Part shown: positions 1-4,828 of the stretch, one piece after another
How the letters are laid out: each line of letters opens with the position of its first letter
How positions within the stretch are numbered: the stretch's first letter is position 1
Translations under genes and position numbers: made by a program
Source of the DNA: Terriglobia bacterium
Lineage (GTDB): Bacteria; Acidobacteriota; Terriglobia; Bryobacterales; UBA6623
Length of the DNA: 64,000 nucleotides
NCBI GenBank assembly: GCA_009838515.1
Contig: VXRL01000002.1
Span: forward strand, 15,937-79,936
Reading direction: 5' to 3'
The notes under the pieces: model-generated
Database searches by the model: none
The model's input: the letters and a program-made list of their open reading frames with translations, nothing else
Told to the model about the DNA's origin: nothing

Positions 1-1
1 C

Positions 2-94
2 GACACCCGCGGGGCGCGCCCCGGCCCGGGGCGCCGGGTCTCCATCGATCTCCGGCGAGAGTCCCGCGAGCGCTGGCTGATCGCGGAGGTCTAG
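2..94 (+). CDS. 3' end of an unidentified ORF (cut by window edge)
   Basis: An open frame enters from the left edge and stops at TAG 92-94. The visible 30 codons end in RRVSIDLRRESRERWLIAEV, a charged, protein-like tail I cannot assign. The same frame continues after the TAG as another convincing reading frame (95-337). The two could therefore be adjacent genes or one interrupted gene. Confidence 0.4.
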   Translation, partial: DTRGARPGPGRRVSIDLRRESRERWLIAEV

Positions 95-337
95 ATCCGC
101 GGGCCGCGGCGCTTCCTGCGCAGGAAGCGCTACCTGGCGGCGCTGCGCGGGCCGGATCCGGCAGAGTGGGCCGAGCGGCTGGCGTTCAAGTTCGCCAGCG
201 ACAGGGTCGCCTTCCAGCTGCACGACGACGTCCCGAGCGAGTTCATCGTCCGCGTGCACGCCTGCGGGGCGTTCAACGGCAGGCGGGCATGGCGCGACGA
301 GCCCTACGAGACGATCGCGGACAAGCTCGGCTGGTAG
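95..337 (+). CDS. Small phage-region protein lacking a standard start codon
   Basis: The frame encodes about 80 residues with balanced composition (for example VAFQLHDDVPSEFIVRVHAC) and ends at TAG 335-337, 5 bp before the convergent minus-strand cluster. No ATG exists, and the only GTG lies deep inside. A good Shine-Dalgarno GGAGG (85-89) sits 5 nt before ATC at 95, immediately after the upstream TAG. TAG-ATC looks like a TAG-ATG junction with one base changed. It may use an AUC start, be a mutated or mis-sequenced ATG, or be fused to the upstream frame by amber readthrough. Function is unknown. Confidence 0.4.
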   Translation: MRGPRRFLRRKRYLAALRGPDPAEWAERLAFKFASDRVAFQLHDDVPSEFIVRVHACGAFNGRRAWRDEPYETIADKLGW

Positions 338-342
338 CGTCA

Positions 343-459
343 TCACTGACCCCCTCTCCGCTCGGCGCGCCGCAGCTCGCGCAGCGCCAGGCAGCCGAAT
401 AGGATGGCGGCGCAGTTGGCCGCGACCGTGATGCAGAGGCACAGGGCGAGCAAGGTCAT
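343..459 (-). CDS. 38-residue single-span membrane protein, last gene of coupled cluster
   Basis: Starts MTLLALCLCITVAANCAAIL and ends in a short Arg-rich cytoplasmic-type tail (RELRRAERRGGQ). Residues 3-27 form one hydrophobic segment with three cysteines. Its ATG overlaps the TGA of the preceding gene (456-458), so translation is probably coupled. Size and topology resemble small phage membrane proteins such as holin-like or superinfection-exclusion peptides, but there is no specific match. Function is unknown. Confidence 0.5.
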   Translation of the reverse strand: MTLLALCLCITVAANCAAILFGCLALRELRRAERRGGQ

Positions 460-635
460 CGCTCCGCCCTCTCCGTCTCCGCCGCCGGGACGGCGGCTAG
501 GCAGGGATCGATCGCCAGGTCGGGCATCCGCCCTCCCTGCGCCCTGATGCGCTCGCGCTCCCAGCGCGCGAACCAAAGATCGACCAGCCGCTCCAGCTGG
601 GTGCGGCGGTCGCGGGGCAGCCTGATCTCAGTCAT
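456..635 (-). CDS. 59-residue charged protein of the phage-like cluster
   Basis: Begins MTEIRLPRDRRTQLERLVDL and continues through a WFARWERERIRAQ helix to an acidic and alanine-rich end. The N-terminal half looks like one amphipathic helix. The ATG overlaps the end of the upstream gene by 8 nt, and its TGA overlaps the next ATG as ATGA. These overlaps and the protein-like composition are the main evidence that it is real. No function can be assigned. Confidence 0.5.
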   Translation of the reverse strand: MTEIRLPRDRRTQLERLVDLWFARWERERIRAQGGRMPDLAIDPCLAAVPAAETERAER

Positions 636-990
636 CGCCCCCCCCGAAGTCGTGCAGGGCGAACCCGGCGTGCGTCTGGAGCGCCCGGAATGCCTGGCTG
701 GCCCAGTGCCGGCGGAGCTCCGCCGGGCCCAGCGACAGCGCGTGAACTGCGTGCATGGCCAGCAGGTGCACCGCCGAGCGGCGGTCGCCCGCGGCGAGGC
801 GGGCCGCGAGCGGCTCGCTGTATCCGACGTCCCGGCGCAGGGCGGACGGGTAGCCTGGGTTGGAGCTCATGCCGCGCTCTATGGCCGGCAGCAGGAGCAG
901 GTGGGCGAAGCCGGCGCCCGCGTTCGCGTTCGGGCGGAACATGCCGCGGGTGCCGATGCCGGTGTCGACGCCGGTCTTGAGGATCGTCAC
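628..990 (-). CDS. 120-residue hypothetical protein of the phage-like cluster
   Basis: Starts at GTG 990 in a GTGA overlap with the upstream stop. The product begins MTILKTGVDTGIGTRGMF. A central region rich in Ala, Leu and His (GDRRSAVHLLAMHAVHALSL) probably forms helices, and the tail is Gly/Asp-rich (FGGGDD). There is no signal peptide or clear transmembrane span. It is the largest protein of the cluster. I do not recognise the family. Confidence 0.5.
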   Translation of the reverse strand: MTILKTGVDTGIGTRGMFRPNANAGAGFAHLLLLPAIERGMSSNPGYPSALRRDVGYSEPLAARLAAGDRRSAVHLLAMHAVHALSLGPAELRRHWASQAFRALQTHAGFALHDFGGGDD

Positions 991-1118
991 CGGGCCGCCC
1001 CCCAGGCGATGGCCAGGGCGATCCCGAGACGCATCAGGCGCTGGGAGGCGTACAGCGCGGCCAGCATGGCGAGCACGCCCGCGGGCCAGGCCGCGACAGT
1101 ATATATACGGGAGCTCAC
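987..1118 (-). CDS. 43-residue hydrophobic peptide
   Basis: Begins at GTG 1118 in a GTGA overlap and reads VSSRIYTVAAWPAGVLAML, then a second hydrophobic stretch RLGIALAIAWGAAR. One or two membrane spans are likely, making it a second membrane peptide in this cluster beside the 38-residue protein at 343-459. A small phage lysis or exclusion role is possible but unsupported beyond size and hydrophobicity. Confidence 0.45.
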   Translation of the reverse strand: MSSRIYTVAAWPAGVLAMLAALYASQRLMRLGIALAIAWGAAR

Positions 1119-1357
1119 GCGGCGGCCTCCCCGCCGGCGTCCCAGTGCAGCTGGCAGTCGGCCTTGGCGTGGGCTAGGCCGGTCTGGACTCCGATGACCT
1201 CGACCGGGCAGCCCGGATAGGTCTCGTGCGCCTCGTAGATGTCGCGATCCTCGAAGTCGATCCAGTCGTGCTCGCCGGCAGAGCGGCGGCGGATGCAATA
1301 GAAGGCGTCACGGTCCACCCAGACGCCGTCGGTCGTCTTGACCCAGCGGAGCTTCAC
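1115..1357 (-). CDS. 80-residue hypothetical protein
   Basis: Starts at GTG 1357, overlapping the upstream TGA as GTGA. The sequence begins VKLRWVKTTDGVWVDRDAF and is rich in Trp, Asp and Glu, with an acidic centre (EHDWIDFEDRDIYEAHE) and two late cysteines. The fold looks beta-rich and soluble. The balanced aromatic content argues for a real protein. Family unknown. Confidence 0.5.
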   Translation of the reverse strand: MKLRWVKTTDGVWVDRDAFYCIRRRSAGEHDWIDFEDRDIYEAHETYPGCPVEVIGVQTGLAHAKADCQLHWDAGGEAAA

Positions 1358-1644
1358 GAGGAGCCCCTCCCGATCTGGGCATCGGTCGTCTGGCGGATAT
1401 GCGCGGCCGCGCGGGACTCGCCTTCGAGGGCGAGCAGCATCTCGACCTGGGCCAGCACGGCGGACCAGCTGACCTCGGCCTCGACGAGGCCGGTGCACTC
1501 GGAGCGATCGCTGGCGATGCGCAGGCGGCGGCGAGTCTCGCGGGAGTGCGGGATCAGGGCCGGGGCGCCGAGCTCGACTCGCACGCGGCGGAGCTCGCCG
1601 CCGTAGCGGATCTCGAGGGTGACGTCGTCGCGGATGTCTGTCAT
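1354..1644 (-). CDS. 96-residue hypothetical protein
   Basis: The start MTDIRDDVTLEIRYGGELRR overlaps the upstream stop as ATGA. The N-terminal half alternates in a beta-strand pattern, and the C-terminal half (VSWSAVLAQVEMLLALEGE) is helical. There is no cysteine motif, signal or membrane segment beyond one helix. Function is unknown. Both junctions are four-base overlaps, so it sits within the coupled transcript. Confidence 0.5.
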   Translation of the reverse strand: MTDIRDDVTLEIRYGGELRRVRVELGAPALIPHSRETRRRLRIASDRSECTGLVEAEVSWSAVLAQVEMLLALEGESRAAAHIRQTTDAQIGRGSS

Positions 1645-1880
1645 GCGGATCCCTCCTCGCGCGGGCGGCGCAAGATCTCGTGGGCGCGGCGACCGAGCTC
1701 CTCGAGGTCTTCGAAGTCGCCGTAGTCCAGCGGGCCGTCGATGGTCTCGGTCCAGGCGGCGAGGTCGCTGGCGAGGCGGACCAGGTCCGGCAGGCAGCTG
1801 GCGGCGAGCCGGCCGACGAGGTTGGCGCGGGCCAGGGCGTCGGGATCCGGCACGGGGATGATCGGGTATGCCGGCTCCAT
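1641..1880 (-). CDS. 79-residue hypothetical protein
   Basis: Starts MEPAYPIIPVPDPDALARAN at ATG 1880, which shares its A with the TGA of the Cro-like gene (TGATG). A helical body (LVRLASDLAAWTETIDG) is followed by an acidic stretch (DYGDFEDLEELGRRA). A longer frame exists upstream but would overlap the Cro-like gene, so the coupled ATG is preferred. No family recognised. Confidence 0.5.
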   Translation of the reverse strand: MEPAYPIIPVPDPDALARANLVGRLAASCLPDLVRLASDLAAWTETIDGPLDYGDFEDLEELGRRAHEILRRPREEGSA

Positions 1881-2146
1881 CAGGCGGCCTCCTTCTCTTC
1901 CTCGCGCGCGGGCGCGGGCTGAGGCTCGGGGCGCGGGACGTCCGGCGGCCACTCCAGATGCGGCGGCCAGTGGTCGGAGAGCCACTGGAGCAGCCGGGCG
2001 GCCGTGCGGATCGTGACATGCCCGGACGGCAGCCGCTCCCAGACCGTGGAGTTGCCGACAGCCAGCCGGCAGAGCGTGGTGCCCGCGATTCCGCGGGCGC
2101 CCATGTAGCGCTCAGCGGCACTCAGTACACCTTGAGTCGTCAACAT
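1880..2146 (-). CDS. Cro-like helix-turn-helix regulator
   Basis: The 88-residue product starts MLTTQGVLSAAERYMGARG. Residues about 17-45 (TTLCRLAVGNSTVWERL followed by TIRTAARLLQWL) match the pattern of phage Cro/repressor HTH proteins. The tail is Pro/Glu-rich and probably disordered. It heads the eight-gene coupled cluster and diverges from the CI-like gene at 2272, a lambda-like arrangement. A palindrome covers its start codon and suggests autoregulation. A GTG at 2206 in the same frame would add a basic extension, but the operator position favours ATG 2146. Confidence 0.65.
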   Translation of the reverse strand: MLTTQGVLSAAERYMGARGIAGTTLCRLAVGNSTVWERLPSGHVTIRTAARLLQWLSDHWPPHLEWPPDVPRPEPQPAPAREEEKEAA

Positions 2147-2162
2147 GCGATCTAGAATCGCA
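2146..2162. promoter_or_regulatory. Candidate operator: TGCGAT-N5-ATCGCA palindrome
   Basis: TGCGATCTAGAATCGCA is a perfect 6-bp inverted repeat with a 5-bp centre, lying over the start codon of the Cro-like gene. The position and symmetry suit dimeric HTH repressor binding. Only one clear copy is visible between the divergent genes. Confidence 0.45.
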
Positions 2163-2233
2163 CATTGACGATTAAGACGCAACTTTTTGCGAAAGATTTT
2201 TTTCACATCGCCTAGACTGCCACCCCCCCCCGT

Positions 2234-2264
2234 TTGTCAAGCGCCAATTGCGGCATGGCATAAT
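2234..2264 (+). promoter_or_regulatory. Predicted sigma70 promoter for the CI-like gene, leaderless
   Basis: TTGTCA (2234-2239) and CATAAT (2259-2264) are separated by 19 bp. Transcription would begin about 7-8 nt after the -10, at or next to GTG 2272, giving a leaderless mRNA like lambda cI from PRM. An imperfect palindrome GGCA-TAAT-TGCC overlaps the -10. A run of nine C (2223-2231) ends 2 bp upstream of the -35. Confidence 0.45.
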
Positions 2265-2271
2265 TGCCACT

Positions 2272-2574
2272 GTGGATACCGTCGAGCGGTTCCGCCAGGC
2301 GGTGCGGGAGGCGGTCGGGAAGAGGCCGGTCGCGAAGGTGGCTGTCGACGCCGGCCTGCCGAGGGACGCGATTCGCTACGTCCTGAAGGGTCGCAACCCG
2401 CCACTCTCGCGAGCGGCAGAGATCGCCGATGCCTTGGAGCTGGACTTCGCTATTGGATCAAGCGGCCAGCGGTCGCGCCCCGGCACAAGGCGCGCGGTCC
2501 TTAATGAACTCGATCGCACTCGCAGTCGCGTTGATGCGATCCTACAGCCAGACGGCCCTGAAGGCTCGGATTAG
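2272..2574 (+). CDS. CI-like phage repressor, short HTH form
   Basis: From GTG 2272 the product is about 100 residues (V/M-DTVERFRQAVREAVG). The HTH is at about residues 18-55: VAKVAVDAGLPRDAIRYVL, then SRAAEIADALELDF, matching lambda-repressor-like XRE domains. It lacks a peptidase/LexA-type C-terminal domain, so it would not be cleaved like lambda CI. An in-frame TTG at 2248 adds 8 residues, but it lies inside the predicted promoter. It probably silences the divergent Cro-like cluster. Confidence 0.6.
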   Translation: MDTVERFRQAVREAVGKRPVAKVAVDAGLPRDAIRYVLKGRNPPLSRAAEIADALELDFAIGSSGQRSRPGTRRAVLNELDRTRSRVDAILQPDGPEGSD

Positions 2575-2645
2575 CACCCACAATATATAGTGGTGCGACT
2601 CGGGGCCTCGACTTGCGGCGCGACTTGCGGCAAATTGCCAATTTT

Positions 2646-2666
2646 AGTTGCGGCGAATTGTGTCCC
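2646..2666 (+). repeat. 21-bp direct repeat, copy 1
   Basis: AGTTGCGGCGAATTGTGTCC plus one further C, identical to the copy at 2760-2780. A shorter relative, TTGCGGCAAATTG, lies just upstream. It separates the phage-like region from the HicB gene. Confidence 0.8.
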
Positions 2667-2759
2667 GGCGAAAACGCTGGAGCGGCCGTGCTCGGCCCCT
2701 AAGTGATTCTCCCTGCTCGATATATCCCGTTCATACCCGCTAAATCCCGGAATTCTGGG

Positions 2760-2780
2760 AGTTGCGGCGAATTGTGTCCC
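2760..2780 (+). repeat. 21-bp direct repeat, copy 2
   Basis: Exact second copy of the 2646-2666 repeat, starting 114 bp later and 42 bp before the HicB start. No other gene lies in 2575-2821. An 83-codon minus-strand frame there simply reads GTQFAAT twice because of the repeat. Confidence 0.8.
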
Positions 2781-2821
2781 CGCACAGCGGAGATACTGCG
2801 CCAGTGAGCCGGGGGGCTGCA

Positions 2822-3034
2822 ATGAAGGAGATCGTTTTTGAAATCACCGACGATGAAGTGGATGGCGGATATTCGGCTAGCGCGCTCGGTTTTGGTATCC
2901 ACACCCAAGGGGATTCGCTCCACGAGATTCGGCGGAACATTCGGGAGGCTGTCGATTGCTATTTTGGTGGCACGATCCCACGATCTGAATTGATTCGTCT
3001 GCACTTCGTGCGTGACGAGATTCTCGAGGCATGA
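2822..3034 (+). CDS. hicB: HicB-family antitoxin
   Basis: The 70-residue protein MKEIVFEITDDEVDGGYSAS has the HicB (UPF0150) partial RNase-H-like pattern: beta strands, GGYSASALGFGIHTQG, then a helix (SLHEIRRNIREAVDCYF). Short HicB proteins lacking a DNA-binding domain pair with HicA and neutralise its mRNA interferase activity. It overlaps the following hicA start by 4 nt (ATGA). The downstream toxin appears broken, so this antitoxin may be an orphan. Confidence 0.75.
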   Translation: MKEIVFEITDDEVDGGYSASALGFGIHTQGDSLHEIRRNIREAVDCYFGGTIPRSELIRLHFVRDEILEA

Positions 3035-3238
3035 AGTTATCGCGAGACGTCAGCAGCCCGGAGCTCCAGGCGGCGCTGCGGCACCTAGGCAACGAGACCG
3101 CGCCGCAGCGAGGCTCCCGTTTGCGGATCACAACAGGAGACAACGGAGAACATCACGGAGTAATCCATTTGCATTGGCAAAGGGGCATACCGGGCCATCC
3201 GCCAAGTCAGAGTCCGGTTAGCACTGCCACATCCGTAG
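3031..3238 (+). pseudogene. hicA: Degenerate HicA toxin
   Basis: The N-terminus MKLSRDVSSPELQAALRHLG is typical of HicA, and GEHH near residue 40 matches the conserved end of the dsRBD-like fold. The catalytic His usually found in GSH is Arg here (RGSR, residue 30). After GEHHGVI the expected C-terminus reappears in the +1 frame (GKGAYRAIRQVRVRL, stop 3236-3238), while frame 0 runs on to 3348 into the convergent sulfatase gene. Both features point to an inactivated toxin. Residues before the shift are well preserved, so the damage may be recent. Confidence 0.6.
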
Positions 3239-3284: not shown

Positions 3285-4775
3285 TCACGGCAGTTGCGCG
3301 AGTTCAGGGTTCTCAGCCGCCCACTGGAAGAAGTCCTCTACCGTGTAGAACGCCTCGTGCTTGTAGAGTCGCCCGGCATCCTCGATCGGAGCTGTCCAAT
3401 CGAAGTCCCACGAATCACCTGTCTTTTCCATCCAGCGTGTTAGCTCGGCATCAAGTTCGGCAAGCGTCGGGCCGGCTTCCAGATCTGCGGCAAGATTCTT
3501 CAGCTCGTACGGATCAGCCTCAAGGTCGTACAGGACCCACGGCGCGTCCTTCGTGCGAGCGTACATGAAGCGGTCTGTGCGCAGACCGCGCCAGCCCCGT
3601 TCCACGCCTCCGGCGAGAAACGGTCCGAAGATCTGAAAATAGGCTGCGCTCGGCCCCGACTCCGCCTGTCCGAGCACCACCGGAGCGAGGCTTGCTCCCT
3701 GCATCTCCGGCGGCACGGGCAATCCGCAAAGCGAGAGCAGTGTCGGTGCGATGTCCACGTGAGAGAACAGCGCATCGGTTTCGCGTCCAGCCGGCGCGCC
3801 GGGATGCCGCACGATGCCGGGCACGCGAATCGACTCCTCCCAGGGCTTTCGCTTCAGACGCGTTCCGTGGGAGCCCAGCATGTCGCCGTGATCCGAAGAC
3901 ACGATGACGATCGTGTTGTCGCGCAGTCCGAGTTCGTCGAGTTCGCCAAGAATCCTTCCGACCTGGTCGTCCACCGCAGTCACCATCGCGTAGTAGGCGG
4001 CGATCTCCTTGCGGCCCGGGGTCTCCACATAGGGGCTCGGCACCAGCTCGCGGTCGCTCGTGTCGCCGTCGAAATTCGGTCGCAGCGCTATGGCGTCCGG
4101 ATCGTACATCGCCATGTATTCGTCCGGAGCGATGTATGGATCGTGCGGCGGGCCCATTTGGACCGTCAGGAAAAACGGACGTTCGTCCTGCTCGGTCTGG
4201 CGCAAGAACTCAATGCCGATGTCAGTCCAGACCGAGGCTTCGAAGGTCTTGATCGGGATCGGTTCGGGATCGTCCCGGAAGTAGTGCGTGTCGAAGTGCG
4301 CGTGGCTCACTTCGTTCGCGGCCCAGAATTCAAACCCCTGCCGCCTCGCTCCGGGTGGAATCCAGCCCGGCTGGCGGGGGCCTCCGTCCAGATGCCACTT
4401 GCCGACGAAGCCGGTGCGGTAGCCAGCCTCGGCGAACAGCTCGGCAATGCTGGTCTCGGATTCGCGGAGGCGGAGATCGTTGGCGATCATTCCGTTGGTA
4501 TGCGCGTACTTGCCGGTCAGGATGATGGCGCGGGCCGGGCAGCACACGGGCGAGTTGGCGAAGTGATTGCGGAACAGCACTCCCTCGGCGGCGAGCCGGT
4601 CCAGATTCGGGGTCTTTACGTCTGGATTCCCCATGCAGCCCATTGCCTGCGCCCGCATCTGGTCCGGGAACAGGAACAGGACGTTCATGGGCCGCTCGCG
4701 GTCTTGCTGAGGGCCGCAGCCGACCGCCCCCAGCAGAGCACCGATCCCGCCGATGAATTCGCGCCTAGTGGCCAT
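3285..4775 (-). CDS. Secreted sulfatase (arylsulfatase superfamily)
   Basis: From MATRREFIGG the protein has a twin-arginine leader and a lipobox-like GAVGC, so export through Tat and lipid anchoring are likely. Residues about 30-460 form a sulfatase domain: NVLFLFPDQMR carries metal ligands, VCCPARAIILTGKYAH holds the CxPxR formylglycine signature (Cys about residue 78), and VSSDHGDMLGSHG is the second metal/substrate block. The length, about 496 residues, is normal. It would release sulfate from a polysaccharide or small sulfate ester. The substrate is not readable. A FGE or anaerobic maturase is needed elsewhere in the genome. Confidence 0.9.
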   Translation of the reverse strand: MATRREFIGGIGALLGAVGCGPQQDRERPMNVLFLFPDQMRAQAMGCMGNPDVKTPNLDRLAAEGVLFRNHFANSPVCCPARAIILTGKYAHTNGMIANDLRLRESETSIAELFAEAGYRTGFVGKWHLDGGPRQPGWIPPGARRQGFEFWAANEVSHAHFDTHYFRDDPEPIPIKTFEASVWTDIGIEFLRQTEQDERPFFLTVQMGPPHDPYIAPDEYMAMYDPDAIALRPNFDGDTSDRELVPSPYVETPGRKEIAAYYAMVTAVDDQVGRILGELDELGLRDNTIVIVSSDHGDMLGSHGTRLKRKPWEESIRVPGIVRHPGAPAGRETDALFSHVDIAPTLLSLCGLPVPPEMQGASLAPVVLGQAESGPSAAYFQIFGPFLAGGVERGWRGLRTDRFMYARTKDAPWVLYDLEADPYELKNLAADLEAGPTLAELDAELTRWMEKTGDSWDFDWTAPIEDAGRLYKHEAFYTVEDFFQWAAENPELAQLP

Positions 4776-4828
4776 CTGCGACGCGATCATAGCGCAGCTT
4801 TTCCGGCGTTGGAGCCTCGGGGGCCGAG

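Follow-up and report, generated by a model that had tools for sequence, protein, structure and literature searches.

At the left end of phage Mu, the genes follow in the order repressor, ner, A and B. In Fc02, a Mu-like phage of the B3 type from Pseudomonas aeruginosa, the early operon begins with ner, the next gene (gene 10) prevents superinfection by other phages, and the operon also encodes transposases A and B, gemA and mor (PMC9936078). In Pseudomonas Mu-like phages, the PaMx73/D3112 group among them, accessory open reading frames (ORFs) of 34-100 codons are located mainly in the left arm, and these include anti-CRISPR genes (PMC4378225). Here we analyze a cluster of eight overlapping ORFs at the start of a 64,000-nucleotide stretch of DNA (the window; contig C27, positions 15937-79936) from a Bryobacterales genome (G000; 5.84 Mb in 99 contigs). 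The best explanation of this cluster, which we consider very probable, is that it is the accessory early block of a Mu-like prophage of Bryobacterales, whose left end occupies window positions 1-2786 and includes a repressor/Cro-like switch. The cluster lies directly behind the prophage end, before the transposase operon, and related prophages of the genus carry portions of it at the equivalent position. As a component of an already known type of phage it is unremarkable, and by itself it requires no new mechanism; it does include several unfamiliar small genes, which are seen in one bacterial genus only.

The element is identified as Mu-like from its sequence by MuA, MuB, a Mu-type head, a P2-type contractile tail, end sites and a 5-bp duplication. 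A preliminary description of this DNA had noted that no integrase, replication or structural phage gene is visible, which is correct inside the window; such genes, however, lie just outside it. Leftward extension, proposed there as a check on a prophage early region continuing to the left, yielded MuA transposase, MuB, terminase, portal and Mu F-like head genes on the same strand, with tail genes and the other prophage end on contig C52. In the sequence to the left, analyzed together with the window start as L004 (C27 1-19500), the minus strand carries, in order, a helix-turn-helix (HTH) gene of PHROG 925, five small genes, MuA and MuB, followed by a Gam-like gene (a weak match, E = 3e-4), GemA, a cysteine-dioxygenase-like gene, a DUF5131 gene and Mor, and then by a DksA-like gene and the Mu-type head genes Gp27, terminase large, Portal_Mu (E = 2e-96) and Mu_F. 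Unnamed small genes are interspersed among these, and the order is broadly what we take to be the order in Mu. MuA comprises HTH_Tnp_Mu_2, DDE_2 (E = 2e-39) and Mu-transpos_C domains, has no internal stop, and retains D187, D252 and E306, invariant across 7 transposases, as a candidate catalytic triad; the adjoining MuB-type AAA+ protein (L004 10907-11899) matches AAA_22 and Phage-MuB_C (E = 9e-15).

From the Pfam and PHROG families found on C52, the tail module is of the P2 type. No tail of Mu's own type was found, the five C52 tail genes belonging to general or P2-type families; tails vary among transposable phages, and we do not count a P2-type tail against membership. The tail tube protein (P2 FII type) is labelled head closure by PHROGs, and two of the tail genes share 72% and 76% identity with their counterparts in a relative in genome G005. 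With Mu-type head and P2-type tail families in one prophage, the element is a mosaic.

Three copies of one direct repeat (family D1) are present in window positions 2622-2786, and the terminal motif TGTRCGGGGACACAATT is common to both ends of the prophage: the window end, read inward, is TGTGCGGGGACACAATT, and the other end, which starts at C52 47676 next to the tail genes, opens with TGTACGGGGACACAATT. Given this common motif and the presence of GCGGA beside both ends, the prophage stops at window position 2786. The Mu-like combination of TG...CA ends, repeated end sites and 5-bp duplication of the target was thus found here and, independently, in G005, where a contiguous relative of 38.4 kb (219186-257596) is flanked by the duplication GCCCG and has two end sites 22 bp apart. 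In the G005 scan, only one TG/CA pair with equal 5-mers was detected, against an estimated chance expectation of ~0.2, and the motif AGCGAACACTTGAA is located near both ends; because the motif is shared, a chance origin of these ends is unlikely.

The locus resembles Mu in that a repressor-like gene at the end faces a small gene, with MuA and MuB on the strand of the latter, as well as in the repeated end sites, the TG...CA ends, the 5-bp duplication and the Mu-type head genes. Unlike in Mu, ~4.2 kb with many small genes separates gene 1 of the cluster from MuA, which shares 34.8% identity with that of Mu across 68% of the protein; the repressor candidate is a short, lambda-type HTH protein, the tail families are of the P2 type, and the host is an acidobacterium. 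Small accessory genes in the left arm, and the exclusion gene after ner in Fc02, are points of likeness to the Pseudomonas Mu-like phages, whereas genes 6, 1 and 3 have no match among 50,697 phage records (for gene 3, at E up to 1).

When the cluster was examined, all seven junctions of the chain of eight minus-strand ORFs running from 2146 to 343, reported in the preliminary description as overlapping by 1-8 nt, were confirmed (1, 4, 4, 4, 4, 8 and 4 nt). A chain of eight overlapping ORFs of at least 38 amino acids is beyond chance and was never reached in the controls: the longest chain had 6 ORFs in 500 dinucleotide shuffles and 3 in 62 tests elsewhere in the window (31 same-size stretches, both strands). 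Codon-usage log-odds were positive for all eight genes (range 5.2 to 28.4), and a simple gene caller kept seven of them, dropping the 43-residue ORF and placing the start of gene 1 at 2104 instead of 2146. In six-frame comparisons with BLOSUM62 scoring, the annotated frame was the best for MuA and in 8 of 10 other comparisons (eight of cluster genes, with gene 4 counted twice, one of the repressor-like gene and one of the convergent gene described below); genes 3 and 2 were narrowly outscored by another frame. Both of the smallest products had been described as membrane peptides; that of gene 8 is clearly hydrophobic (Kyte-Doolittle maximum 2.49), but that of gene 5 is only borderline (1.62).

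The divergent Cro/CI-like pair is borne out in its position, less so in its protein families. Gene 1 matches phrog_7669 (E = 6e-18), a PHROG without annotated function, and has no Pfam match, whereas the repressor-like protein matches HTH_31 (E = 1e-3) and HTH_3 (E = 0.007), both under the cut-off, and lacks, by Pfam, the S24 peptidase domain of a classical CI. We infer from its position that gene 1 may be a Cro/Ner-type regulator. Relatives of gene 1 were detected on 169 viral contigs, and the neighbourhoods of the best 80 were examined: a MuA-like gene was within the stretch examined in 33 of these, always on the same strand and 1.5-4.0 kb downstream (33/33), whereas none was found in that stretch for the other 47, and the family is therefore not taken as Mu-specific. 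Homologues of the repressor-like protein (41-52%) face a PHROG 7669 gene in genomes G007, G003 and G006. In G005, the protein in the repressor position has an S24 domain (E = 1e-14), and a different HTH protein occupies the facing position; thus, the regulatory module seems to have been exchanged between phages. The one terminator-like site detected in window positions 1-3100 lies in the divergent control region (2178-2191) and is at chance level (1.0 expected).

Recurrence was assessed in related genomes, of which G001, G005 and G007 belong to the window's genus and G015 to its family. A match to MuA was found in 9 of 61 genomes, its own included, and in 6 of the 11 in the genus; the MuA catalytic-domain family was found in 4 of 297 genomes of a phylum sample, with another query, so that this figure is only roughly comparable with 6/11. 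When genome contigs were searched with a single MuA sequence, no relative was found; with an alignment as query, the best 80 of 338 matches were kept. Five cluster genes, namely genes 2, 3, 4, 6 and 7 (w1641, w1354, w1115, w628 and w456 by window start coordinate), are syntenic in G005 and in the same order, and synteny is partial in G006, G003, G001 and G007. The repressor-like gene, gene 1, gene 2 and the gene 6 family are common to G006 and G003, with gene 4 additionally present in G003 and the gene 8 peptide in G006. Of the 257 genomes searched across the order, 5 contain a member of the gene 6 family and 4 a member of the gene 2 family; all belong to the window's genus. Each member is encoded on the same strand as MuA and lies upstream of it or, in two genomes whose contig breaks off there, upstream of the first part of MuA. 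Neither family was seen without Mu genes in these 257 genomes, a search confined to these two of the eight genes. No relative of genes 6 and 2 was confirmed among viral contigs.

Table 1 Features of the prophage left end and associated loci. Coordinates refer to the window unless a locus is named; L036 and L032 are stretches of G006 and G007, respectively.
Feature	Coordinates	Strand	Description
Convergent gene, C-terminal part	1..337	+	start at L004 15609, across scaffold gap
Gene 8	343..459	-	38-residue hydrophobic peptide, probably membrane
Gene 7	456..635	-	59-residue protein; G005 homologue E = 3e-17
Gene 6	628..990	-	120-residue protein
Gene 5	987..1118	-	43-residue hydrophobic peptide, GTG start
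Gene 4	1115..1357	-	80-residue protein, GTG start
Gene 3	1354..1644	-	96-residue protein; G005 homologue E = 6e-16
Gene 2	1641..1880	-	79-residue protein
Gene 1	1880..2146	-	PHROG 7669 family, Cro/Ner position
Divergent control region	2147..2271		between gene 1 and repressor-like gene
Repressor-like gene	2272..2574	+	100-residue HTH protein, CI position
Terminal repeat, likely MuA site	2622..2637	+	direct-repeat family D1
Terminal repeat, likely MuA site	2646..2669	+	24-nt repeat, 96% identical to outermost copy
Outermost terminal repeat	2759..2786	+	prophage end, last base 2786
Target-site duplication GCGGA	2787..2791		same 5-mer at C52 47671-47675
Tail genes	C52 48290-54764 (L205)		Phage_sheath, Phage_tube FII, TMP_3 tape measure, P2 GpU, GPD baseplate hub (Pfam and PHROGs)
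MuA-N-like stand-alone proteins	L004 14609-15280; L036 6797-7210, 7678-7953; L032 6981-7883		
10-N scaffold gaps	L004 15927-15936, 7363-7372, 5254-5263; L034 12319-12328; L038 9993-10002		mostly beside homopolymer or low-quality sequence

In the proposed course of events, the 100-residue HTH protein would keep a leftward early promoter shut in the lysogen; upon induction, the PHROG 7669 protein would be the first product, acting as a Cro/Ner-type regulator, and the translationally coupled small genes would be expressed ahead of phage replication through MuA- and MuB-mediated transposition. These small genes most likely serve accessory early functions, like those of Pseudomonas Mu-like phages, with the tiny hydrophobic peptides acting in superinfection exclusion and the soluble proteins in host takeover or counter-defence, an assignment by analogy that we regard as evenly balanced between right and wrong. 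Since no cluster protein matches a known function, the Cro/Ner, exclusion and host-takeover roles rest on position and analogy, with Fc02 as the nearest studied parallel for the function of the cluster.

Several observations weigh against the interpretation as a prophage early region under a repressor/Cro-like switch. No match of known function was found in Pfam, PHROG or PADLOC for any of the eight cluster proteins; codon usage does not support the repressor-like gene (log-odds −0.2); and a sigma-70 scan of window positions 1-3100 found 0 promoter-like sites. The G003 and G006 contigs carry only the first part of MuA. The link between C27 and C52 consists in the end motif, the duplication and gene content, not in continuous sequence, and the scan that located the two prophage ends gave another TG/CA pair with equal 5-mers (C52 48073 and window 2784), although that pair lacks the terminal motif on C52. 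Finally, the ratio of nonsynonymous to synonymous substitutions (dN/dS, NG86 method) in comparison with G005 was 0.29 for gene 7 and 0.80 for gene 2, but 0.95, 0.96 and 1.37 for genes 4, 6 and 3, respectively. The preliminary description had named values near 1 as a refuting result, and several genes are indeed near 1; however, the MuA control gave 0.73 in the same comparison, so that the measure is weak here and was set aside as a test. Compared with other relatives, values of 0.21 and 0.13 for gene 1 and of 0.35 for the repressor-like gene suggest constraint, and in the close pair G006/G003, 9 of 10 comparisons were below 1 (including the start of MuA at 0.98), with one at 1.23.

The dN/dS values of 0.95-1.37 in three genes, together with the three N runs in L004, could also be read as signs of a defective prophage remnant with decaying early genes, which would be compatible with the prophage identity. 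We consider such decay very unlikely: all eight ORFs are open and overlapping, MuA is free of internal stops and retains its candidate triad, both ends are present with an exact 5-mer duplication, the 0.73 value of MuA itself points to codon bias, and the N runs represent assembly gaps that lie mainly in sequence of low quality. A satellite or phage-inducible island that borrows structural genes from a helper, an option raised in the preliminary description, would fit the part of the element inside the window, where no structural gene occurs, but terminase, portal, head and tail proteins are all encoded by the element itself; we dropped this idea on account of those capsid and tail genes and rate its probability as negligible.

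A less distant alternative, likewise compatible with prophage identity, is that the cluster is mainly a superinfection-exclusion or defence cassette expressed in the lysogen, a moron at the prophage end instead of a lytic early programme. The two small hydrophobic peptides, the exclusion genes that adjoin the repressor in the Mu-like Fc02 (PMC9936078) and the convergent gene that cuts the cluster off from the MuA operon are consistent with such a cassette; by contrast, gene 1 faces the repressor-like gene, members of its family share the strand of MuA in each of the 33 relatives where MuA is in view, the early genes of G003 and G007 run towards MuA on one strand, and none of the 10 proteins searched matched a PADLOC model (E up to 1). 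On this balance, we judge the cassette unlikely, though clearly less so than decay, and favour the early block of a Mu-like prophage; an exclusion role for single small genes is possible. The PADLOC result also led us to reject a known anti-phage defence system, and a domesticated defence module, suggested in the preliminary description, is likewise unsupported, genes 2 and 6 having turned up, among the 257 genomes of the order, only in the Mu-like prophages of the genus.

The analysis assigns Mu-type transposable phages, their ends defined, to an uncultured acidobacterial genus and provides a set of small syntenic early genes as candidates for exclusion or host-takeover activity. No description of an acidobacterial Mu-like phage was found in the open-licence literature consulted, although one may still be in print: the text of PMC11924767 (Bryobacterales, sponge, prophage) does not contain 'Mu-like', 'transposable' or 'transposase', and none is described in the accessible parts of PMC12142844 and PMC8597652. 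Interest centres on the small genes and on the leader of the convergent gene.

Two features were overlooked in the preliminary description: the end of a plus-strand gene at 1-337 and the 10-N gap left of base 1. The gap directly abuts the window, with low-quality sequence adjoining, and the first 109 bases of the window match L004 15719-15827 (86%), ~100 bases left of the gap; given this match, the contig ends probably overlap in the genome. The two parts of the convergent gene, on either side of the gap, were read separately. In G006, a homologue occupies the same place and orientation (L036 8105-8494; 51% identity for the right part, tblastn E = 3e-8 for the left), and its protein has no match in Pfam, PHROG, PADLOC or the phage records; a distant G005 homologue was detected by blastp (E = 1e-4, in a three-sequence database with composition correction off). 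The structure model is unusable, with a predicted local distance difference test score (pLDDT) of 47. The gene separates the cluster from the MuA operon in G000; at the G003 and G007 loci, where no convergent gene was called, the early genes are codirectional and run towards MuA.

In the leader of the convergent gene (L004 15535-15614), two hairpins are predicted, the second of which pairs over the ribosome-binding site. The leader resembles that of G006 and, in part, that of G005: 64 of 84 alignment columns are identical between G000 and G006, compared with 64% DNA identity in the coding right part. Folding z-scores are −2.3 for G000 and −3.8 for G006, and −0.5, not significant, for the G005 piece; an Rfam search of L004 13600-18800 gave two matches, both far under the gathering score. 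At the leader hairpin in G005, there is an N run with poly-G/poly-C sequence, which sequencing dropout at the hairpin would explain, although the N run in G000 is ~300 bases further on. Stand-alone proteins resembling the N-terminal DNA-binding domain of MuA were found in several genomes; the likeness is to PF02316 (E = 6e-11) for the L032 copy and under the cut-off or by tblastn only for the others, with two such copies by tblastn in L004 14609-15280. These features could fit an early region with two switches, in which the end-proximal repressor/Cro-like pair governs the block of small genes. The convergent gene would then belong to a second divergent control region, located ahead of the MuA operon, with its leader, better conserved than the coding part, hiding the ribosome-binding site, and the MuA-N-like proteins would tune MuA binding. 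This arrangement is doubtful, somewhat more so than the exclusion cassette; if true, RNA structure and mimics of the MuA domain, not one repressor, would gate transposition.

Among the individual cluster genes, gene 8 has a 54-residue syntenic, alignable counterpart in G006 (tblastn E = 0.016) and a Pfam match to DUF4190 under the cut-off (E = 7e-4). Genes 7 and 5 have no family match in Pfam or PHROG; the position of gene 5 in G005 holds ORFs of 46 and 51 amino acids, hydrophobic by eye. The structure model of gene 6 is all-helical with low confidence (pLDDT 60.5), and homologues of gene 4 were found in G003 (E = 1e-18), G005 (E = 4e-7) and G001 (E = 6e-5).

Sulfatase genes (PF00884) flank the prophage at C52 46030-47502 and window 3285-4790. 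In line with the prophage interpretation, the flanking sulfatases are at most 350 bp apart in 7 of 10 other genus genomes, with a spacing of ~1 kb in G004 and ~4.7 kb in G009, and no close copy in G002. An exact empty site was not demonstrated, the sulfatase intergenic sequence being different in the five relatives fetched, from all of which ~300 additional bases present at the G000 site are absent. Within these bases lies a small HicB/UPF0150-like ORF (window 2822-3034; Pfam E = 0.02 and 0.09, under cut-offs).

One gene upstream of MuA, G006 (L036 9398-10264) and G007 (L032 7880-8758) encode a tyrosine recombinase matching Phage_integrase (E = 9e-21 and 3e-17, respectively), which is unexpected beside a DDE transposase. 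The G006 recombinase starts with an HTH stretch resembling the small MuA-N-like proteins of G001 and G003.

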